Below are positions 1,330 through 9,423 of a stretch of 9,514 nt of DNA, in pieces. Positions within the stretch are counted from its first letter, which is position 1, and each line of letters begins with the position of its first letter. This stretch comes from Myxococcales bacterium (lineage in GTDB: Bacteria > Myxococcota > Polyangia > Fen-1088). Below the pieces are notes generated by a model that worked only from the letters and a program-made list of their open reading frames with translations, was not told where the DNA came from and made no database searches. A program made the position numbers and the translations under genes. The stretch spans positions 1 to 9,514 of the forward strand of contig PMCR01000116.1 in NCBI GenBank assembly GCA_003155465.1, in the 5' to 3' direction.

Positions 1330-1335
1330 AGGAGG
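1330..1335 (+). promoter_or_regulatory. Strong ribosome binding site for the first operon gene
   Basis: A perfect AGGAGG lies 7 bases before the ATG at 1343. It decides the start of the lipoprotein gene over an upstream in-frame start at 1280, which would put 21 extra residues ahead of the signal peptide. Confidence 0.85.
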
Positions 1336-1342
1336 CAGCAAC

Positions 1343-2344
1343 ATGGAACGACGAGACCTGCTAAAGGCCGGGGCCGCGGTCGGAGCCGCCGCACTCGCTT
1401 CGGGCTGCGCCACGGGACACAGCCCAGCAGCCCGCTCGGCTGGGGCAAGCACCCCACCCCCGCCCATCCCGGACGCAGATATGGACGGGCTGGTGGCGCG
1501 GATGGACGCGACCCTGGCAGGCATGAAGCAGACCAGTCTGATGCGCGAGTTGACGCCCGACGGACTGGCGCAGGGCCTCGATGAGGGCGCCCTGGCCGCG
1601 CACGAGGACTTCATGCAGAGGAGCGTGCGGTCCCTGTATGTCTCGGGCATCTTCCTGGATCAGCCGGAGCACGCGCGGTCGCACGCGGGCCTGCAAGAGC
1701 GCGTGGTCCAGACGTTGCCCGACATGGACAGTTCGGTGCGAGACTCGTACGCCATTCTCGCCAGCCTCGATGACGAACAACATGCCCAGATCCGGGAGGT
1801 GCTACAGAAGCAGCCCGACTTCGGTATGCGGGTGGCCGAGGCGCTGGACGCTCGCGCAGCGGAGGTGGGCATTTCCAGAAAGCGCCGGATGCAGCTCCGC
1901 TCGGCAGCGGTGGAGATCAGCACACGCATGCGCCGGCAGCACCCAGCGACGCTGGTGCAGGAGTATCTCGCCAAGACGGAGAGAGTCTATGAGCGGCACG
2001 GGGAGAGCGAGCTCAGTCGCCAGATCGCCACGGCGGCGGGCGAGCAGCTCTTCTGGGCTCGCGTTGCCCATGCAGATGCCCCGCCGGAGCCAGCCCCATC
2101 CGCTCCGCTGGCGCGGCCGCAGGGTGCCGCCCAGCCACCGCAGCCCAAGCCAGGAAGCGGGGCGCTCCGCGCTGCTGGCTGGATGTTCGGCATCGGCGCG
2201 GCCTCGACCGCGACGGGGGCCATCATGGTGGCGTCCGGTACGTTAGTTGGTTTGTTCGCCATCACCCTGGGAGTGGTGCTGCTGCTGGCTGCAATTGTCA
2301 CCGCCATCGTGGGCGTCATCATTCAAGCCGCCTCGCACCCATGA
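1343..2344 (+). CDS. Tat-type lipoprotein with a C-terminal membrane hairpin, unknown function
   Basis: A 333-residue protein starting at the ATG behind AGGAGG. The N-terminus MERRDLLKAG has a twin-arginine pattern (RRxLLK) followed by an Ala-rich hydrophobic stretch and ASGC, making Cys22 a likely lipidation site. Residues 30-45 are a Ser/Pro-rich linker. Residues 46-240 are mostly helical and charged (for example SLDDEQHAQIREVLQKQPDF, about 141-160), loosely recalling periplasmic helical proteins with LTxxQ-like motifs, but I cannot assign a family. A Pro-rich linker (247-270) leads to two hydrophobic helices (about 276-300 and 302-329). A lipid anchor plus a terminal hairpin is an odd combination. 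Its TGA overlaps the ketosynthase ATG by 4 bases (ATGA), so it is translationally coupled and likely works with the pathway, perhaps tethering it at the membrane. That role is inference. Confidence 0.85.
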   Translation: MERRDLLKAGAAVGAAALASGCATGHSPAARSAGASTPPPPIPDADMDGLVARMDATLAGMKQTSLMRELTPDGLAQGLDEGALAAHEDFMQRSVRSLYVSGIFLDQPEHARSHAGLQERVVQTLPDMDSSVRDSYAILASLDDEQHAQIREVLQKQPDFGMRVAEALDARAAEVGISRKRRMQLRSAAVEISTRMRRQHPATLVQEYLAKTERVYERHGESELSRQIATAAGEQLFWARVAHADAPPEPAPSAPLARPQGAAQPPQPKPGSGALRAAGWMFGIGAASTATGAIMVASGTLVGLFAITLGVVLLLAAIVTAIVGVIIQAASHP

Positions 2345-4473
2345 CCCCGCCTGCGACAGGAACCCGCGAGCCGGCTGTGACGGGCATGGGCGCCGTTTCG
2401 GCCCTGGGCAATGGGTGTCTGTCGCTGAAGCAGGCGCTGGATGAGGGTCGCGACGGCATCGCTCCCATCACCCGATTCTCGACCGAAGAACTGACCGTGC
2501 ATTTCGGCGCGATGGTCACGGACGGGGACAGCGCCCCGGAGGGTGAAACGCCCGACGCTCATCGCAGGCTGTGCGTCGGCTTCGCGCTCCGGGCGGCGCG
2601 CGAGGCCTGGGCGGCGGCGCGTGTCGACGACGCCGGTCTGGCGCCCGACCGGGTCGCGCTGGTGCTGGGAACCAGCATCGGGGGCCATGTCGATGCTCTG
2701 CATGGGATCACTGAAGAGGTCGGCGAGCGCCTGGGTGTGGGCGGACCGCGCCTCACGGTTTCCACCGCCTGCTCGTCGTCGGCCAATGCGCTCGATCTGG
2801 CGCGCTGTCTTCTGGAAAGGGGCGAGGCCGATCTGGTGGTGGCGGGCGGCGCCGACGTTCTCACCGCCGAGGTTTTCGCGGGCTTTCACGCCCTCGGGCT
2901 CTTGTCCCGAGAAAAGTGCGCCCCGTGGAGCGAACCCTACGGGACCACGCTGGGTGAAGGAGCGGGATTTCTGGTCCTGGAATCTGAGGTGCAGGCGCGG
3001 GGCCGCGGTGTCCGCCCGCGCGCTTTCTTGCACGGATTCGGCCTGTCGTCCGACGCCTACCACGCCACCTCGCCGGATCCGGCGGGTGCCGGCGTGGCCC
3101 GGGCGATGCGGGCCGCGCTGGATGATGCTGGCCTGACCCCGGACGCCATCGGTTACGTCAATGCGCACGGCACCGGCACGCAGGCCAACGACATCGCGGA
3201 GTGGAAAGCGATTCGCGCTGTCTTTGGGCCGCGCGCCGAGACGCTGCCGGTGAGCGCGACCAAGACCTACCTAGGCCACGCCCAGGGGGCTGCCGGCGTA
3301 CTCGAGATCATCGCGACGATCCTGTGCATGGAACGTGCTCTGGTGCCGCCGACCCTGCGCCACACGCGTCCGAGACCCTTCAGTCCGCCTGATTCCGTGG
3401 CCGGGAGCCGCCCCCGTTCCCTCGACTATGACCACGCTGTGTGTACCAGCTCGGCTTTTGGCGGCGCCAACGCAGTGGTCGTGCTCGGCCGCCGGCCGCG
3501 CGAGCTGCCCGTTCGTTCCCGCCGTCCGGTGTATGTCCTCGGCTCGGGATGGGTCGCGTCTGCCGGCGTCGGCACGGGCGACGTGAATGCCGCCGGCGCC
3601 GCGAAGGCGCCGGGCACCGTCCCCGAATTCGACCTGCCGGCTCTGGTCCCGACCCTGGATCCGCGCGGAGTGGACCCGGCCTCGCGCTTCCTGATTGCCG
3701 CGGCCGCCCGGGCACTCGGTGCCGCAGGCATCGTGGTGCGCGCCGCGCTCCGCGAGCGTGCCGGGCTCTTCGTGGGCGCCCTGGCCACATCCGCCGCGAG
3801 TACGGCGGAGTTCCGCCACAGCATCCAGGAACGCGGACTGGCGCAGCTTTCAGCCACGGCCTTCTCGCGTCTGGTGCTCAATGCCGCTGCCGGGGTGTGC
3901 TGCCAGGCGCTGGCCTTGCGGGCACCGACCACGACGGTCAGCATCGGTCCCGGCAGCGGGCTATTGGCCTTGCTCTACGCGGCGGAACTGCTGTCCACGG
4001 AACAATCCGCCGATCTCATGTTGGCCGGTGGGTTCGACGAGCCCGACACGTCGGCGGTGGCGCGAGGAGAGGCCGGGGGCGCCGCCTGCCTGGTGCTGGC
4101 ATCGCCCGCGCTCGCCCTGCAGGCGCAGCCGCGCATCTCGGTGCGAGCAGCGGGCTGGGCCATCGGAGCGCCGGGGCGGTTTGCATCAACCGCCGAGCTG
4201 GCGCTGGAGCGCGCGGCGGTTTCCGTCGGCGACGTCGACGGGATGTACCTCGACGGGCCTGCCCGCACCGCCTGGCCGGCGCAGGCGTCCGGCGCCGCAT
4301 TTCGGGGGCCATGCGCTCCGGCGGCGGAACCCTTGTTCGCGACAGCAGCAGCGCTCGAAGCACTCCAGAGTGGGAAGGCGCGTGTGGCTCTGGTCGGAAC
4401 CGGCGCCGGGCATTGTGCTTCGTTGGCGCTGGTTCTGACCGTCGATGACGAACCCCAAGGCACAGGGCAATGA
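2341..4473 (+). CDS. Fused beta-ketoacyl synthase and chain-length-factor-like protein
   Basis: A 710-residue protein. Residues 11-385 form a complete FabF-type ketosynthase: VTGMGAVSALG at the start, nucleophile Cys144 in TVSTACSSS, His276 in NAHGTGTQAND, Lys308 and His313 in KTYLGHAQGAAG, and SSAFGGANAVVVL at the end. It should condense ACP-bound malonyl units with a growing chain. Residues 396-702 look like a second, degenerate thiolase-fold unit (VYVLGSGWVASAGVG at its start, GTGAGHCASLALVL at its end). There the Cys region reads TVSIGPGSG, so the nucleophile is gone (Pro537 aligns with Cys144), and the two catalytic His motifs are missing. This is the logic of a KS-chain length factor pair, normally two genes in type II systems but fused in PUFA-synthase subunits such as PfaC. 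The usual CLF Gln is not seen. It has no clear ribosome site and overlaps both neighbours by ATGA. Confidence 0.9.
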   Translation: MTPPATGTREPAVTGMGAVSALGNGCLSLKQALDEGRDGIAPITRFSTEELTVHFGAMVTDGDSAPEGETPDAHRRLCVGFALRAAREAWAAARVDDAGLAPDRVALVLGTSIGGHVDALHGITEEVGERLGVGGPRLTVSTACSSSANALDLARCLLERGEADLVVAGGADVLTAEVFAGFHALGLLSREKCAPWSEPYGTTLGEGAGFLVLESEVQARGRGVRPRAFLHGFGLSSDAYHATSPDPAGAGVARAMRAALDDAGLTPDAIGYVNAHGTGTQANDIAEWKAIRAVFGPRAETLPVSATKTYLGHAQGAAGVLEIIATILCMERALVPPTLRHTRPRPFSPPDSVAGSRPRSLDYDHAVCTSSAFGGANAVVVLGRRPRELPVRSRRPVYVLGSGWVASAGVGTGDVNAAGAAKAPGTVPEFDLPALVPTLDPRGVDPASRFLIAAAARALGAAGIVVRAALRERAGLFVGALATSAASTAEFRHSIQERGLAQLSATAFSRLVLNAAAGVCCQALALRAPTTTVSIGPGSGLLALLYAAELLSTEQSADLMLAGGFDEPDTSAVARGEAGGAACLVLASPALALQAQPRISVRAAGWAIGAPGRFASTAELALERAAVSVGDVDGMYLDGPARTAWPAQASGAAFRGPCAPAAEPLFATAAALEALQSGKARVALVGTGAGHCASLALVLTVDDEPQGTGQ

Positions 4474-4784
4474 GCAGAACTGAGGCGATGGAGCAAGCGC
4501 AGGCTGCGGTGGACCGGAGGCAAGACATGCTCCGGCGTGTGCGCGAGCTTCTCATCAACAACCTGCACGTCCGGCGGGAGCCGGATGAGATCGATCCGGA
4601 CGCGCCACTCTTTGCGACCGGGCTGGGGCTGGACTCGCTGGATGCGGTCGAGCTGGTGGTGTGCCTGGAAACCGCGTTCGGGGTCAGGCTGGGCGACGAC
4701 CAGGAGCTGCGCCGCAAGACCCGCACGGTGAACAGCGTGGTCGACACTGTGCTCGCGACGACGGAGACTTCACATGGCGGCTGA
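4470..4784 (+). CDS. Acyl carrier protein
   Basis: A 104-residue ACP. The phosphopantetheine site is Ser56 in the typical GLDSLDAVEL motif. Helix I is seen at RRVRELLINNL (about 22-32) and helix III at residues 80-98. It has a longer N-terminal extension (about 18 residues, MSRTEAMEQAQAAVDRRQ) than stand-alone ACPs of about 80 residues. It should carry the growing chain as a thioester in the cytoplasm, and needs a phosphopantetheinyl transferase that is not encoded here. The ATG overlaps the ketosynthase stop (ATGA), and its 3' end overlaps the next gene by 11 bases, so tight stoichiometry with both neighbours is likely. Confidence 0.92.
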   Translation: MSRTEAMEQAQAAVDRRQDMLRRVRELLINNLHVRREPDEIDPDAPLFATGLGLDSLDAVELVVCLETAFGVRLGDDQELRRKTRTVNSVVDTVLATTETSHGG

Positions 4785-5808
4785 CACGACGGCCATCCGC
4801 CTGTCGGTCGCGGTCAGCGAGGCCTCGCACGTCTCGGTCCTGCGGGTGTCGGGAAGTGCCGCCTTCGATGCACTCGATCGCATCGTCCCGCGCGAGCTCT
4901 ACCTCCGGGACGGCCAGATCCTGCACTCGATGCTGCTGAAGGACGATGCGACACTGCTCGCGGATCTCTTTGTGTGCCGCCAGGACGAGTCCTACCTGCT
5001 GCTTTCCGAGGGGGCCTGTGCGGACGAGATCAGCCGCCGCTTGCAGGAACAGGTCCCGGTCGGCGCGGACCTGGAACTTCGCTCACTCGCAGAGACGCAT
5101 GGCCTGGTGGCGCTCGATGGCCCGTACGCCTGGGAGCTCTTGGCGGAGGCGTTGAGCCCCGACGTGGTCGGCCTGCCGTATCTGGGGTTCTTCGACCTCG
5201 ATCCTTGGATCTGCTTGCGCGCCGGAAAGACCGGCGAGTACGGCTACTGGCTGCTGGGAGCCCGCAGCGAAATTCCCGCCCTGATGGTGCACTTGCTGGA
5301 GGTGGGCAGACGATTCGACGTGGCACGCACGGATCTCGAAGCACTCGATCAGTGCGCTCTCGAAAATGGCTTCTTCAACATCCGGCGCGAGGGGGCCCTC
5401 GAGCTGACGCCGATCGAGCTGCAGCTCCAGTGGCGCGCGTCGTACCAGAAGGACTACGTCGGCGCCGCCGCTCTTCGCCAGCACCGGACCGAGGGAGCCC
5501 GCGCCCGGGTCACGACGATCGTTGGAGACGGCCCCCTGGCCGAGGGCGATTCCGTGTTCCTCGACGGGACCCGCATCGGACGCATGGTCAACGCCGGCTT
5601 TTCCGTCACGCGCGGAGACTGGGTCGCACTGGCGCTGGTCGAGGAGCGCTGGGCCCATCCTGGACTGAATTTCAACGCAGCCCATGGCGACGCACGACTT
5701 GACGTTCATTCGATTTCTCCACCCGTGATCAACAACCGGAGCCTGTATGTTCACTCGCAGCGCCACAGTTATCGGACTCGGGATGAGCAAACTTTCCCAG
5801 CCCTGTAA
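4774..5808 (+). CDS. GcvT (T-protein/aminomethyltransferase) family protein, diverged
   Basis: A 344-residue protein, close in length to T-proteins. The order of family segments is kept: LLKDDATLLADLFV (55-67; family MLN..GGIIDDLIV), GLVALDGPYAWELLAEALS (110-128; family LIAVQGPNA), AGKTGEYGYWLL (150-161; family R.GYTGEDGFE), ALENGFFN (195-202; family RLEAGL..YG), LTPIELQLQW (211-220; family P.EAGL.W), and the C-terminal barrel with IGRMVNAGFSVTRGDWVALALV (268-289). Known members transfer one-carbon units to or from tetrahydrofolate. Several usually conserved residues differ: the first Asp of DD is Ala63, TGED is TGEY, and the Arg of RLEAG is Ala195. It may therefore bind a folate or another ligand without the classical glycine-cleavage reaction. 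Genes for the other glycine-cleavage proteins are absent. The substrate may be an ACP-bound chain; that is inference. The TAA stop directly touches the next ATG. Confidence 0.8.
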   Translation: MAADTTAIRLSVAVSEASHVSVLRVSGSAAFDALDRIVPRELYLRDGQILHSMLLKDDATLLADLFVCRQDESYLLLSEGACADEISRRLQEQVPVGADLELRSLAETHGLVALDGPYAWELLAEALSPDVVGLPYLGFFDLDPWICLRAGKTGEYGYWLLGARSEIPALMVHLLEVGRRFDVARTDLEALDQCALENGFFNIRREGALELTPIELQLQWRASYQKDYVGAAALRQHRTEGARARVTTIVGDGPLAEGDSVFLDGTRIGRMVNAGFSVTRGDWVALALVEERWAHPGLNFNAAHGDARLDVHSISPPVINNRSLYVHSQRHSYRTRDEQTFPAL

Positions 5809-6561
5809 ATGGCCATGAACCGCTTTGCAGACAAGACCGTGGTCGTGACCGGCGCGTCGCGAGGGCTGGGTCGGGCGATCGCCGTCGCCTTCGCAGGCGA
5901 GGGCGCGTACGTGTACGTGGCCTTTCGCAACCGCGCCGACGACGCCGCCCAGACACTGGAACTGATGGCAGGAGTGGGCGGGCCAGGGGCTGCCCTGCCG
6001 TTCGACGTGCGCGATCGCGACGCCGTGACTGAGGCCTTTGCGCGCGTGCAGCGCGAACGCGCAGGTCTGGACGTGCTGGTCAACAATGCCGGGCTGGCGC
6101 GCGATGCCCTGTTTCCGCTGATGGGCGCGGACGACTGGCAGGAGGTGATCGACGTGAACCTCTCGGGGACCTTCGCCTGCACGTCCGCTGCCGTCCGGCT
6201 GATGCTGGTGCGAAGGACTGGCGCCATCATCAATGTCGCATCGGCGGCCGGAATCAGGGCGGCGGTGGGCCAGGTCAACTACTCGGCGTCGAAAGGCGGC
6301 GTGCTGGCCCTCACGCGGTCACTGGCCGCCGAGCTCGCACCGCGCGGCGTGCGGGTGAACGCCGTGGTGCCGGGGCTGCTGTCAACCGGCATGGCGGCGC
6401 GTCTCGATCATCGAATCGCCGCCGAGCAGCGGGCTCGTATCCCGCTAGGACGCCCGGGTTCCGCCGAGGAGGTCGCCCGGGCGGTGTTGTTCCTCGCATC
6501 CGATGACGCCAGCTACATCGTGGGGCAATGCTTGCCGGTAGACGGGGGATTGACGCTGTGA
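5809..6561 (+). CDS. fabG: 3-oxoacyl-ACP reductase, FabG-type short-chain dehydrogenase
   Basis: A 250-residue SDR, the normal FabG length. Visible motifs are TGASRGLG for cofactor binding (14-21), NNAG (92-95), the structural Asn117 in DVNLSGTF, and the catalytic Ser145, Tyr158 and Lys162 (NVASAAG and NYSASKGG) with the expected S-13-Y-4-K spacing. The C-terminus SYIVGQCLPVDGGLTL is typical. It should reduce the ketone made by the ketosynthase to a hydroxyl, using NADPH. The start may be ATG 5809 or ATG 5815 (MAMNRF); neither has a clear ribosome site, so coupling to the upstream stop (TAAATG) is likely. Its TGA overlaps the next gene's GTG. Confidence 0.92.
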   Translation: MAMNRFADKTVVVTGASRGLGRAIAVAFAGEGAYVYVAFRNRADDAAQTLELMAGVGGPGAALPFDVRDRDAVTEAFARVQRERAGLDVLVNNAGLARDALFPLMGADDWQEVIDVNLSGTFACTSAAVRLMLVRRTGAIINVASAAGIRAAVGQVNYSASKGGVLALTRSLAAELAPRGVRVNAVVPGLLSTGMAARLDHRIAAEQRARIPLGRPGSAEEVARAVLFLASDDASYIVGQCLPVDGGLTL

Positions 6562-7499
6562 CGGTGAGGCACCGTCTTGGCGAGCGGAAGTGCGCTCTCA
6601 TCTTTCCCGGGCAGGATGGGCCGCGTGCACGCATGGGGCTGGAACTCGCCGCGCGCTCGGCGCCCGCGGCTGCGCTGCTGGACAGGGCCGCCGAGGCCGC
6701 GGGGGTCGACCTTCGCCGCGCCCTGGAACGAGGAGGGCCGGCGCTGGAGCGGACCTCGGTTTTGCAGCCGGTGCTCACCGCCGTGCTGCTGGGCGTGGCC
6801 GAAGAAATCGCGCGCGCCGGCGTGCGGCCCGCGTTGCTGGCCGGCCATTCGCTGGGCGAGATCGCCGCCTGGAGCGCGGCGGGCTGCATCGCCCCGGCGG
6901 CGGCGGTCGATGCGGCGGCCACGCGTGGCCGCTTGATGGAACGCGAGGCGCGCCTGCACCCGGGCGGCATGCTGGCGCTGCCAGGGGCGACCAAGGAGAT
7001 CCTGGATCAGGCGCTCGCCTGCGGCCGTGTCCGCGGGCGCCTCGATCTGGCGGCACGCAACACAATGGACGAATGGGTCGTGACCGGGGAGGAATCCGCC
7101 CTGCGCGCGGTAGCCGCACGCCATCCATCGACCCGCTTGCCGGCAGCGGGTCCGTGGCATAGTCCCGCCCTGGTCGATGCGGTGGACGAGCTTCGCGCGG
7201 CCCTGACCGCGATCCCTCGCGAACCCGGCCGCGCGCGCTTCATCGCGAACCGGACAGGCCGCGTGGTCGAGCGCGAGGCCGACATCCCCAACTTGCTCGC
7301 GGACCAGCTCACTCACCCGGTGGCGTGGCTGGAAACGCTGGAATATCTGGCCGAGGCCGAAGTGACCGACATCGTCGTGGTGGGTCCGGCCCGGCCCCAT
7401 GCCACCTTTGCGCGCTCCCATCTGGGCGAGCGAGCTAGAATCTGGACCACCGAGACCGGCGCCGAGCTCTCTTGCGCACTGGAGGCACTGCGATCATGA
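6558..7499 (+). CDS. Acyl/malonyl transferase, FabD-type
   Basis: A 313-residue protein. I chose GTG 6558 because it overlaps the reductase stop as GTGA and lies 8 bases after GGGGGA (6544-6549). ATG 6528 is also in frame but would add ten unlikely residues. Motifs are LIFPGQD (14-20; family FPGQGSQ), nucleophile Ser98 in GHSLGE, Arg123 in ATRGRLM (the carboxylate-binding Arg of malonyl transferases), and His201 in GPWHSPAL. It should load malonyl units from CoA onto the ACP. Oddities are GQD for GQG, and Glu172 where the family has Gln in the SPGQVV segment. Arg123 argues for a carboxylated substrate such as malonyl. A private AT beside the housekeeping FabD suggests dedicated supply, or a different extender or starter. 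Confidence 0.87.
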   Translation: MTVRHRLGERKCALIFPGQDGPRARMGLELAARSAPAAALLDRAAEAAGVDLRRALERGGPALERTSVLQPVLTAVLLGVAEEIARAGVRPALLAGHSLGEIAAWSAAGCIAPAAAVDAAATRGRLMEREARLHPGGMLALPGATKEILDQALACGRVRGRLDLAARNTMDEWVVTGEESALRAVAARHPSTRLPAAGPWHSPALVDAVDELRAALTAIPREPGRARFIANRTGRVVEREADIPNLLADQLTHPVAWLETLEYLAEAEVTDIVVVGPARPHATFARSHLGERARIWTTETGAELSCALEALRS

Positions 7500-8104
7500 A
7501 CGCGAAGAAGGAAACCCCGCTGCGCCTGGGAACGGACGTCATCCAGAAGCTGTTGCCGCACCGGCGTCCGTTCTTGATGGTGGATCGGATCGAGTCGTTG
7601 GTTCGCTCCCCTGTTCCGACGCTGCGGGCCACGCGGCACATCTCGGCCAACGAGGAGGTCTTCGCCGGCCACTTCCCAGGATTGCACCTGTGGCCCGGCG
7701 TCTACACCATCGAGGGACTCGGGCAGACCGCTAACGTCCTTGAAGCGTTGATGGCATTGATTGACGGCTTCGAGGTTGCGGGCGGGAGCGCGGAGGATGT
7801 GATCGAGGGGCTGCTCAGCCTGGAGGCCCGCTACACCCTGCGGGCCGCGCCCCACGCCGACAAGGTGGCCGTGCTGCTGGAACAGATGCGCGACCCGCTC
7901 CGCTTCATGGGAATGTCGGCCCAGGTCAACGTCAAGCTCCTCTCCCCGGTGTTCGCGGGGCAACGGCTCGACTACTGCGTCCGGCGCACGCATACTGCGG
8001 GCGATCTCGTCCGCTTCGAAGTCGAGGCCGAGGCTGACGGGAGAGAGGTCGCCCGGGGGTCCATGGATTCCATTGTCAAGGTCGCTGCTCCGTCGTCGGA
8101 CTAG
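7496..8104 (+). CDS. 3-hydroxyacyl-ACP dehydratase, FabZ-type hotdog with an insertion
   Basis: A 202-residue protein starting at ATG 7496, ten bases after GGAGG (7481-7485) and overlapping the AT stop (ATGA). FabZ features are LLPHRRPFLMVDRI (19-32), catalytic His59 in FAGHFPG, and Glu73 in IEGLGQ on the central helix. The C-terminal strands SAQVNVKLLSPVFAGQRLDY and GSMDSIV complete the fold. FabZ is usually about 145-150 residues; the excess is mainly about 90-137, an extra segment between the central helix and the later strands. It should remove water from the hydroxyacyl-ACP to give a double bond. Without an enoyl reductase, the double bonds may remain. Confidence 0.88.
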   Translation: MNAKKETPLRLGTDVIQKLLPHRRPFLMVDRIESLVRSPVPTLRATRHISANEEVFAGHFPGLHLWPGVYTIEGLGQTANVLEALMALIDGFEVAGGSAEDVIEGLLSLEARYTLRAAPHADKVAVLLEQMRDPLRFMGMSAQVNVKLLSPVFAGQRLDYCVRRTHTAGDLVRFEVEAEADGREVARGSMDSIVKVAAPSSD

Positions 8105-8106
8105 CC

Positions 8107-9423
8107 ATGCGAGCCGCAGTGCCGGTCTTGGCCGTCTTGGCCTTGGGGGCCGCATCCGGGGCGGGGTGCGCGGGCAGGTTGGTTTGGCAGAGCAAGACCC
8201 GCGACCGGCGCGCGTGGGTCCAGGTGCTGGAAGATGGCAAGGGGCAGCGGGTGAGGATCGGGGCGCTCTATGGCCCACTCTATGACGGTATCGGCGTAGA
8301 CGCCCTATCACTCTGCGGGAACCACATCGCGTACCCGGCGCGACGAGGCACGCGGTGGTTGGTCGTGCATGACGGGCACGAGCTGGGTTTCTGGAGCGGG
8401 GTTGGCGAGCTGGCCTTCAGTCCCGATGGCGCGCGGCTGGCGTTCTCGGCCGAACGCGATGGGGAATGGCAGGTCGTCGTCGATGGAACGGCCGGGCCAC
8501 GTTTCGAATCCATCTTCGCCCACAGCCTGACCTGGAGGGCCGATGGGGTGTCGCTGGCCTATGCGGCCACGCGGGCGGGCCGGGCGCACGCCGTGCTCGA
8601 CCAGGTTCCCGGCCCACCCTTCGACGGGGTTGGCAGGCTGGCCTTCGGGGGAGTGCGCTTCGCGTACGTGGGCCGGATGGGAACGACTTCTTCCCTGGTC
8701 CTGGACGGAATCGCGGGAGCGCCCGAGAAACAGATCGGGGAGTTCGCCTTCAGCCCAGACGGCGCGCACCTCGCCTACGTGGTCGGGAGGGGTGACGAGG
8801 AATGGATCGTGCTCGACCGCCAGAAAGTCGCCGGCCGCGGGCAGGGACACTTCTCCTTCCTGCACGTGGACGACCGTGGTGGCCTGACCTTCGTGATCTC
8901 GTCGAGCGGGTGGGCGCGGCTTGTGCGTCTCTTCGAGGTGGGGCCCACGTACGCGGCGATCCCCGAGCTGGTTGTCACGCCGGCTGGCCGCTGGGCCTAC
9001 CTGGCCCGTGAAGGCAACTTCGTGCGCGCCGTGCTGGATGGTGTGCCCCAGCCTGCCTGCGAGTGGGCCAGCAACCTGGTGGCGAGCCCCGACGGCAAGC
9101 GTCTCGCCTACCTGGCGCAGCGGCAGGGCCGCATCATGGTGATTCACGAAAGTCAGCAGACGCCGGCGAACGCCGCGGTCGACGGCAGTTTGGTGTGGAG
9201 CCGCGACAGCCGCCACTGGGCCTGCCTGGCGGGTGACCCGACGACCCGCACCATCTTCGTGTCGGTGGACGGCATCCGGCGTCGCCCCTTCGATGTGCAG
9301 GAATTGGTCTTCCTCGCAGAGAGGCAATCCGCCCAGGCTCCCGGGAGTGAGGAACGGCTGCTGCAGGAAATTGTGTCAGGCGAGCTCGAGCTCGAGCTCG
9401 CGTCCTGCGGCGGTGTTCACTGA
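8107..9423 (+). CDS. Lipoprotein with a PD40-like (TolB-like) beta-propeller
   Basis: A 438-residue protein, 2 bases after the dehydratase stop. It has a hydrophobic signal (MRAAVPVLAVLALGAASGAGC) with Cys21 as a possible lipidation site; Gly at -3 makes a weak lipobox. The rest is a run of blades with the pattern SPDGxxLAY..., each followed about ten residues later by VxxDG: FSPDGARLAFSA (104-115), RADGVSLAYA (144-153), GGVRFAYVG (181-189), FSPDGAHLAYV (215-225), TPAGRWAYLA (291-300), SPDGKRLAYLA (327-337) and SRDSRHWACLA (365-375), with VVVDG, LVLDG and AVLDG partners. This is a periplasmic or outer-surface propeller, usually a ligand or partner scaffold rather than an enzyme. Tight linkage to the biosynthetic genes suggests that it senses, carries or displays the product; that is inference. 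The C-terminus includes a repetitive GELELELAS. Confidence 0.8.
   Translation: MRAAVPVLAVLALGAASGAGCAGRLVWQSKTRDRRAWVQVLEDGKGQRVRIGALYGPLYDGIGVDALSLCGNHIAYPARRGTRWLVVHDGHELGFWSGVGELAFSPDGARLAFSAERDGEWQVVVDGTAGPRFESIFAHSLTWRADGVSLAYAATRAGRAHAVLDQVPGPPFDGVGRLAFGGVRFAYVGRMGTTSSLVLDGIAGAPEKQIGEFAFSPDGAHLAYVVGRGDEEWIVLDRQKVAGRGQGHFSFLHVDDRGGLTFVISSSGWARLVRLFEVGPTYAAIPELVVTPAGRWAYLAREGNFVRAVLDGVPQPACEWASNLVASPDGKRLAYLAQRQGRIMVIHESQQTPANAAVDGSLVWSRDSRHWACLAGDPTTRTIFVSVDGIRRRPFDVQELVFLAERQSAQAPGSEERLLQEIVSGELELELASCGGVH
9380..9401. repeat. 22-bp perfect palindrome from GAGCTC repeats inside the lipoprotein gene
   Basis: The sequence is GC flanking three tandem GAGCTC units, and reads identically on both strands over 22 bases. 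It encodes the ELELEL run near the C-terminus. It may be a slippage-prone microsatellite or only a codon effect. It sits about 20 bases before the stop, without a following T-run, so a rho-independent terminator is not indicated. Confidence 0.5.

Follow-up and report, generated by a model that had tools for sequence, protein, structure and literature searches.

The 9,514-nucleotide stretch of DNA analyzed here (hereafter the window; contig PMCR01000116.1 of a Myxococcales bacterium, assembly GCA_003155465.1) carries an eight-gene operon in which a set of discrete acyl-chain enzymes lies between two lipoprotein genes. The gene order is a twin-arginine translocation (Tat) type lipoprotein, a ketosynthase-chain length factor (KS-CLF) fusion, an acyl carrier protein (ACP), a GcvT-like protein, a ketoreductase (KR), an acyltransferase (AT), a dehydratase (DH) and a beta-propeller lipoprotein. 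The interpretation that we favor, with somewhat better than even confidence, is that the operon encodes an iterative type II polyketide synthase dedicated to a conjugated polyene acyl chain, accompanied by two envelope lipoproteins that would receive, hold or sense it. Judging from the sequences, it probably builds a light-absorbing polyene lipid, in myxobacteria as well as in several other Gram-negative groups.

The eight-gene operon is real, and its layout is that of the original prediction: eight open reading frames (ORFs), all on the forward strand at 1343 to 9423, with junctions from -11 to +2 bases. The Tat lipoprotein gene overlaps the KS-CLF gene by 4 bases, as the latter does the ACP gene. 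The ACP and GcvT-like genes overlap by 11 bases, the GcvT-like and KR genes adjoin with 0 bases between them, the AT and DH genes overlap by 4 bases (ATG at 7496), and 2 bases separate the DH and propeller genes. The KR/AT junction is an overlap of 4 bases with the GTG start at 6558 or a gap of 2 bases with the GTG at 6564; all these lengths rest on start codons that we picked. The G+C content at third codon positions (GC3) lies between 0.79 and 0.84 in each of the eight genes. The predicted gene identities were borne out by Pfam and NCBIfam, hhalign and AlphaFold2 (AF2) models, the families being, in gene order, a TAT signal, ketoacyl-synt (N and C), PP-binding, GCV_T with GCV_T_C, adh_short/FabG, Acyl_transf_1, FabA/FabZ and PD40. 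The features are as follows.

1330..1335, +, AGGAGG, likely ribosome-binding site of the first gene, read from the sequence (ATG at 1343)
1343..2344, +, Tat-type lipoprotein, 333 aa, with RR signal, Cys22 lipobox, helical bundle and C-terminal hydrophobic hairpin
2341..4473, +, KS-CLF fusion, 710 aa, with an active KS half (C144, H276, H313, K308) and a degenerate CLF half
4470..4784, +, ACP, with Ser56 in a DSL motif
4774..5808, +, GcvT-like protein of the polyketide-associated (CylF-like) clade
5809..6561, +, beta-ketoacyl-ACP reductase (KR, FabG-like), with S145, Y158 and K162
6558..7499, +, AT, malonyl type by FabD/MdcH similarity, with Ser108 and Arg133 (numbering of the ORF from 6528; start GTG 6558)
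7496..8104, +, DH, FabZ-like hot dog, with His67 and Glu81 (numbering of the ORF from 7472; start ATG 7496)
8107..9423, +, beta-propeller (PD40) lipoprotein, with lipobox Cys21

Synthase enzymes and proposed chain assembly

The N-terminal KS half of the fusion retains the Cys-His-His-Lys set. Across relatives (each count includes the window sequence), the KS Cys is kept in 36/37 sequences, with one gap, and both His and the Lys in 37/37. The ACP Ser is present in 41/41, the KR Ser, Tyr and Lys each in 37/38 (one gap), the AT Ser in 31/31, and the DH His67 and Glu81 in 32/32. Because the catalytic residues are kept across relatives, every synthase step is predicted to be active. The CLF half aligns to the KS half (hhalign probability 98.9, E 3.8e-17) as a degenerate KS fold and has, in the window, a Pro at the column of the KS nucleophile Cys.

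The enoyl reductase (ER) is missing, as had been predicted: none stands out among the eight genes by their Pfam and NCBIfam assignments. The KR matches the broad Pfam family PF13561, described as "Enoyl-(Acyl carrier protein) reductase", but its best NCBIfam matches (the 25 best of 236) are mainly FabG ketoreductases. By the chemistry of these families, the AT would load malonyl onto the ACP, the KS-CLF would condense iteratively and set the chain length, and the KR and DH would convert each beta-keto group to a double bond; with no ER acting, the double bonds would stay conjugated. Between the unsaturated and hydroxylated chains of the original prediction, the polyene is therefore the product that we favor, and a hydroxylated chain is possible but not the simplest reading.

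Conservation across genomes

A single scan of a species-genome collection with the GcvT alignment provided the loci for comparison, for which the best 80 of 109 relatives were used. We sorted these loci into types from the best matches of their neighbors and counted genes with hidden Markov models (HMMs) from the same loci. The window type comprises 42 of the 80 loci, and the other 38 fall into a second (32) and a third (6) type. By record title, 32/42 window-type hosts are myxobacterial or Deltaproteobacteria, with Fibrobacterota (2), Gemmatimonadota (2), Poribacteria (2), KSB1 (1) and "proteobacterium"/Pseudomonadota (3) making up the remainder. The GcvT identity between the window and the 42 window-type loci is 35 to 52%.

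The co-occurrence of KS-CLF, GcvT-like and propeller genes proposed as a check was found, since the block recurs, complete with all eight genes, in 15/42 window-type loci, 14 of them in window order. Counted singly, the Tat lipoprotein occurs in 37 of the 42 loci, KS in 36, CLF in 37, ACP in 40, KR in 37, AT in 30, DH in 31 and the propeller in 22; in the five loci lacking the Tat lipoprotein, the contig starts 2 to 1145 bases before GcvT. When the count is limited to the 24 loci with room on both sides, the numbers are 24 (Tat lipoprotein), 22 (KS), 24 (ACP), 21 (KR), 19 (AT), 21 (DH) and 17 (propeller). The window order is kept in 33/40 loci with at least four genes, the seven exceptions being six with a displaced Tat lipoprotein and one with a displaced AT. 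In the 38 loci of the other two types, KS (38/38) and ACP (37/38) are present, and neither the Tat lipoprotein (0/38) nor the propeller (0/38) was detected. The gene grouping exceeds chance, because other phyla have the same genes side by side, at 35 to 52% identity to the window for GcvT, 22 to 34% for the Tat lipoprotein and 25 to 36% for the propeller.

The surroundings of the GcvT gene itself were compared in a sample of 377 Myxococcota genomes. In this sample, 28 genomes carry 29 cluster-type GcvT copies (E<=1e-40), and within about 1.5 kb of these (stretches of up to 4 kb, too short for counting lipoproteins) we found an ACP in 28/29, a KS or CLF piece in 21/29, a KR in 21/29 and an AT in 18/29. 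The sole copy without an ACP nearby (L103) lies where the stretch is cut off. As a control with equal flanks, 0/20 paralogous GcvT-type genes show any of the eight partner profiles (20 of 21 paralogues used, 3/20 shortened by contig ends); an earlier control with shorter flanks gave 0/15.

Outside the eight genes, no neighbor group spans more than 7/42 window-type loci; the 25 largest groups were listed, most without a family-library scan. A redox-group neighbor is found in 17/42 loci, in three groups of 5, 6 and 6 loci that resemble a carotenoid isomerase/desaturase, a halogenase/reductase-type flavoprotein and an acyl desaturase (by one to three members each). Such neighbors look like enzymes that would fit a polyene or acyl product. 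Two of the redox flavoproteins were scanned, and neither reaches any NCBIfam equivalog cut-off; the window itself has no such redox neighbor. Among individual loci, L015 holds a 527-aa ORF (12753-14336) between the AT and DH of an otherwise complete operon, and in L024 (685-3559), likewise in L025 and L040, the Tat lipoprotein region is immediately preceded by genes for a DH-like protein, a flavoprotein and a DUF1702-type protein. Upstream of the operon in the window lie a Gly/Ser-rich ORF whose C-terminal tail resembles MYXO-CTERM (1-432, +; 14.8 bits, under the cut-off of 20) and a 98-aa ORF without a family match that may not be a gene (461-757, -). The tail of the former hints at a myxobacterial host.

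Relationship to the cyl operon

Likened by gene type, the window operon has six enzyme types in common with the cyl operon of Streptococcus agalactiae, Acidipropionibacterium and Lactococcus, which comes closest to it among described gene sets. The cyl product is the polyene granadaene, the orange-red pigment of group B streptococcus. The core gene types of the latter, as given in Table 1 of PMC6985545, are KS (CylH/I), ACP, the GcvT-like CylF, KR (CylG), DH (CylZ) and a malonyltransferase (CylD or equivalent). In the available text of that 2020 survey, cyl genes are reported from Firmicutes, Actinobacteria and the Chloroflexi genus Thermosporothrix, and the acyltransferase CylE is described as universal in cyl operons (PMC6985545). 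The cyl operon has CylE, the CylA/B ABC exporter and a glycosyltransferase, whereas the window block is without these and without a phosphopantetheinyl transferase (PPTase), adds two lipoproteins, belongs to Gram-negative hosts and has no ornithine or glycosyl genes. By family assignment, none of the eight genes is CylE, all belonging to other families. Neither the CylA/B exporter nor the glycosyltransferase was found in the window or among five shared flank proteins scanned from the Polyangium locus L007. That operon is flanked by a protein kinase and a leucyl-tRNA synthetase, with the same neighbor groups in L008, L009 and L013; ABC-ATPase-like ORFs stand at the edge of 2/42 window-type loci (L020, L042).

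Because it has no CylE, ornithine or glycosyl genes, or ABC exporter, the window operon is, on its gene content, not a member of the cyl family as defined, but it shares the assembly core. The original prediction did not recognize the operon as a described pathway, which stands for the eight-gene block as a whole and not for its six-enzyme core, given the cyl/granadaene precedent in the available text of PMC6985545. Searches of the CC-licensed PMC literature, outside of which most subscription papers fall, turned up no description of an eight-gene block that has two lipoproteins but neither CylE nor an exporter. What is known would thus be the assembly core as in cyl, and what appears new is a lipoprotein-framed Gram-negative operon without CylE and exporter.

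Polyene synthase or fatty-acid elongation unit

Several observations weigh against a polyene synthase. No product is known, no transporter gene is linked to the operon, and a housekeeping ER could act in trans. The KS scores higher with FabF (221 bits) than with 6KXD (174) or 6QSP (133), which we take to be solved polyene KSs. Across loci, the propeller is absent in 7 of the 24 with room for it, and the KS was not detected in L023 and L044 despite more than 5 kb of contig upstream. Furthermore, three long-KS clusters (L139, L140, L141) have no GcvT among their annotated genes, unannotated genes not having been searched for. The pks and fun clusters of Lactobacillus reuteri have a single long KS (688 and 798 aa) as the window does, with polyene products predicted, and their tables in PMC6498181 list no GcvT; unlike the window operon, they have acetyl-CoA carboxylase genes and lie on Gram-positive plasmids. 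Because those long-KS clusters list none, polyene synthesis as such does not depend on a GcvT.

Some of these points would also suit a specialized fatty-acid elongation unit, whose product, with a housekeeping ER in trans, would be a long acyl group, hydroxylated or partly unsaturated, that goes into an unusual lipid of the envelope. We consider this rather unlikely. The KS and KR are most like FabF and FabG, ER genes are commonly unlinked, and there is no known pigment. However, a CLF half, together with an ACP and an AT of its own, is typical of a dedicated iterative synthase, and their presence points to such a synthase here. Additionally, the chain made by the closest matching gene set has 12 double bonds, according to the available text of PMC7083881.

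The GcvT-like protein

The polyketide-associated GcvT proteins form a clade apart from housekeeping GcvT. In the window, the protein stays under the curated GcvT cut-offs (TIGR00528, 75.7 bits vs 235.85; NF001567, 102.1 vs 300). All 13 genomes searched carry the cluster copy, and 11 also hold at least one other GcvT-type gene, at 22 to 29% identity. In a tree made by a quick method from 84 of the 136 available rows, with three long branches and composition warnings, 66 polyketide-associated rows split from 18 housekeeping-type rows (SH-aLRT 99). The former side comprises the window type, extra Myxococcota, the enterobacterial type, the multi-KS type and Priestia/Bacillus-like rows, the last being the nearest Gram-positive ones. 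The window-type rows and 12/14 extra Myxococcota rows make one clade of 37 (SH-aLRT 99), with L120 and L121 outside.

Four residues (N114, Y189, E196 and Y236 in the E. coli count) are invariant in 13/13 housekeeping GcvT rows, the five divergent ones of the 18 having been left out by us, and the window protein has E79, K152, W159 and I203 at these columns. In the polyketide-type rows, the N114 column holds Glu in 51/66 and the Y189 column Lys or Arg in most, with Tyr in 6/7 Priestia/Bacillus-like rows. The E196 column keeps Glu in 3/39 window-type and other Myxococcota rows and in 0/27 rows of other types, and the Y236 column has mostly aliphatic residues, Met or Pro. Because these four GcvT-invariant residues are mostly changed, we read the protein as a GcvT fold that has taken on a different task; a repurposed GcvT of this kind may act on or with the ACP-bound chain, not in glycine cleavage.

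A true folate enzyme that adds a one-carbon unit to the chain or removes one from it is unlikely in our estimate. This idea draws on the acidic residue D64, D or E in 66/66 polyketide-type rows, the counterpart of D96 of T. maritima GcvT, which we take to be the catalytic acidic residue. The replacement of the four residues above speaks against it, as does granadaene. The ion formula of the latter is C39H53N2O8 in the available text of PMC6985545, and its polyene takes 13 elongation rounds in that of PMC6498181. Subtracting ornithine and rhamnose leaves a C28 chain, matching 13 rounds, so CylF would add no carbon although it is encoded in the operon. A GcvT that supplies one carbon for an odd-numbered starter was rejected on the same even C28 chain and 13 rounds.

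The role of CylF was called previously unresolved in the available part of PMC6985545, where ammonia supply for ornithine was proposed. The presence of a GcvT-like gene without ornithine genes in the window operon argues against that proposal, which would not fit should the GcvT proteins have a common function. A further point is that the T-protein by itself does not cleave glycine.

The two lipoproteins

The envelope link that the original prediction drew from the terminal lipoproteins holds. The Tat lipoprotein is found in 37/42 and the propeller in 22/42 window-type loci, and each in 0/38 others. The rows of our three alignments (A1, 23 rows; A2, 29; A3, 21) were chosen by us, and A2 and A3 omit some loci with a match; two rows of A2 begin past the signal. 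The Tat lipoprotein has RR in 27/27 rows reaching the signal, the lipobox Cys in 27/29 (Ser or Val in L026 and L043) and two C-terminal hydrophobic segments in 28/29. Its identity to relatives is 22 to 34%. The AF2 model has a helical bundle at residues 41-210 (block-wise pLDDT about 80-95) and, at 274-331, a helical hairpin at the C-terminus (pLDDT 34-83); no confident or usable fold match to the protein was obtained in the PDB. Pfam finds TAT signals in 9/29 members and elsewhere scattered weak matches, and no family beyond the TAT signal emerged from Pfam or NCBIfam. Two tandem Tat lipoprotein genes precede the KS in L024 (3523-5970), L036 (5701-7795) and L040 (4969-7309). The propeller lipoprotein has an invariant Cys21 (21/21 rows) and an identity of 25 to 36% to relatives; its AF2 model (mean pLDDT 91.5) resembles many large propellers, and it stays under the TolB equivalog cut-off (26.8 bits vs 343.15).

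The Tat signal implies that the first lipoprotein is exported in a folded state. It would cross the membrane folded, possibly with product bound, and then be anchored by its lipid and, perhaps, by the C-terminal hydrophobic hairpin. We infer the release, transport and final location of the product from the lipoproteins only. A bolder proposal, which we regard as doubtful, is that the polyene is taken up in the cytoplasm by the Tat lipoprotein folding round it and exported prefolded without a dedicated transporter, with the CylF-type GcvT being an ACP-partner enzyme and not an ammonia source.

The lipoproteins might instead be the substrates, with a special acyl group put on the Tat and propeller lipoproteins. 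Both are co-conserved with the synthase, and the lipobox Cys is kept as counted above (27/29 and 21/21 rows). However, there is no dedicated lipoprotein acyltransferase gene within the block, the propeller is absent in 7/24 loci with room, and the Cys column of the Tat lipoprotein is occupied by Ser or Val in L026 and L043, which makes this decidedly improbable.

Other polyene and GcvT-containing clusters

Aryl polyene clusters follow a common KS-CLF, ACP, KR and DH logic with the window operon and make an envelope polyene, and they are defined by aromatic starter genes, with more accessory genes. Their KS-CLF is heterodimeric (ApeO-ApeC) in the available text of PMC8358021. A variant of an aryl polyene or polyunsaturated fatty acid (PUFA) cluster is very improbable, since, despite the common KS/KR/DH logic and 6QSP among the KS matches, the window has a fused KS-CLF, no aromatic-starter genes, second KS or exporter, and scores 88 bits vs 1010 with PfaA. 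The comparison with both cluster classes thus placed the operon outside them; a multidomain type I PUFA synthase was ruled out by the PfaA model (88.1 bits vs the cut-off of 1010.1).

GcvT of the same clade is found in other settings as well. A Priestia megaterium plasmid cluster (L003) has AT-KR-ACP-DH-GcvT-KS (809 aa) in a row; unlike the window, it has another gene order, thioesterase and PPTase genes and no lipoproteins annotated. No CylE-like product is annotated on that plasmid. The Enterobacterales/Pseudomonas cluster (L001, L002, L004, L045 and others) has ACP, DH, KR, GcvT and KS-CLF (about 850 aa) and adds a second KS, AcpS, an ABC transporter, a LolA-like protein and often two-partner secretion genes. 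The order in this second type is AcpS-SDR-DH-ACP-GcvT-KS-KS-ABC-LolA, often beside the two-partner secretion genes (L001, L002, L004, L045-L047, L050, L052-L063, L066, L069-L078, L080-L084). Near matches to the GcvT-KS portion of L004 occur in 370/5426 complete E. coli genomes, all chromosomal, and one relative is carried by a mobilizable plasmid of Enterobacter bugandensis. The third type, with several KS genes and GcvT (L048, L051, L065, L067, L068, L079), is hosted by Competibacteraceae, Bryobacterales, a planctomycete and a proteobacterium. Two further candidates were set aside: the glycine-cleavage passages in the available text of PMC10204066 on solanimycin concern labelling and not a cluster gene, and a Streptomyces canus plasmid match is by annotation a folate-metabolism locus, not a polyketide cluster.

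Implications

Operons with a CylF-type gene but without ornithine or CylE genes make the ammonia proposal testable in non-pathogens. The window operon and its relatives suggest that myxobacteria and other Gram-negatives have an unrecognized polyene lipid, and Tat-dependent handling of a lipid pigment is possible.

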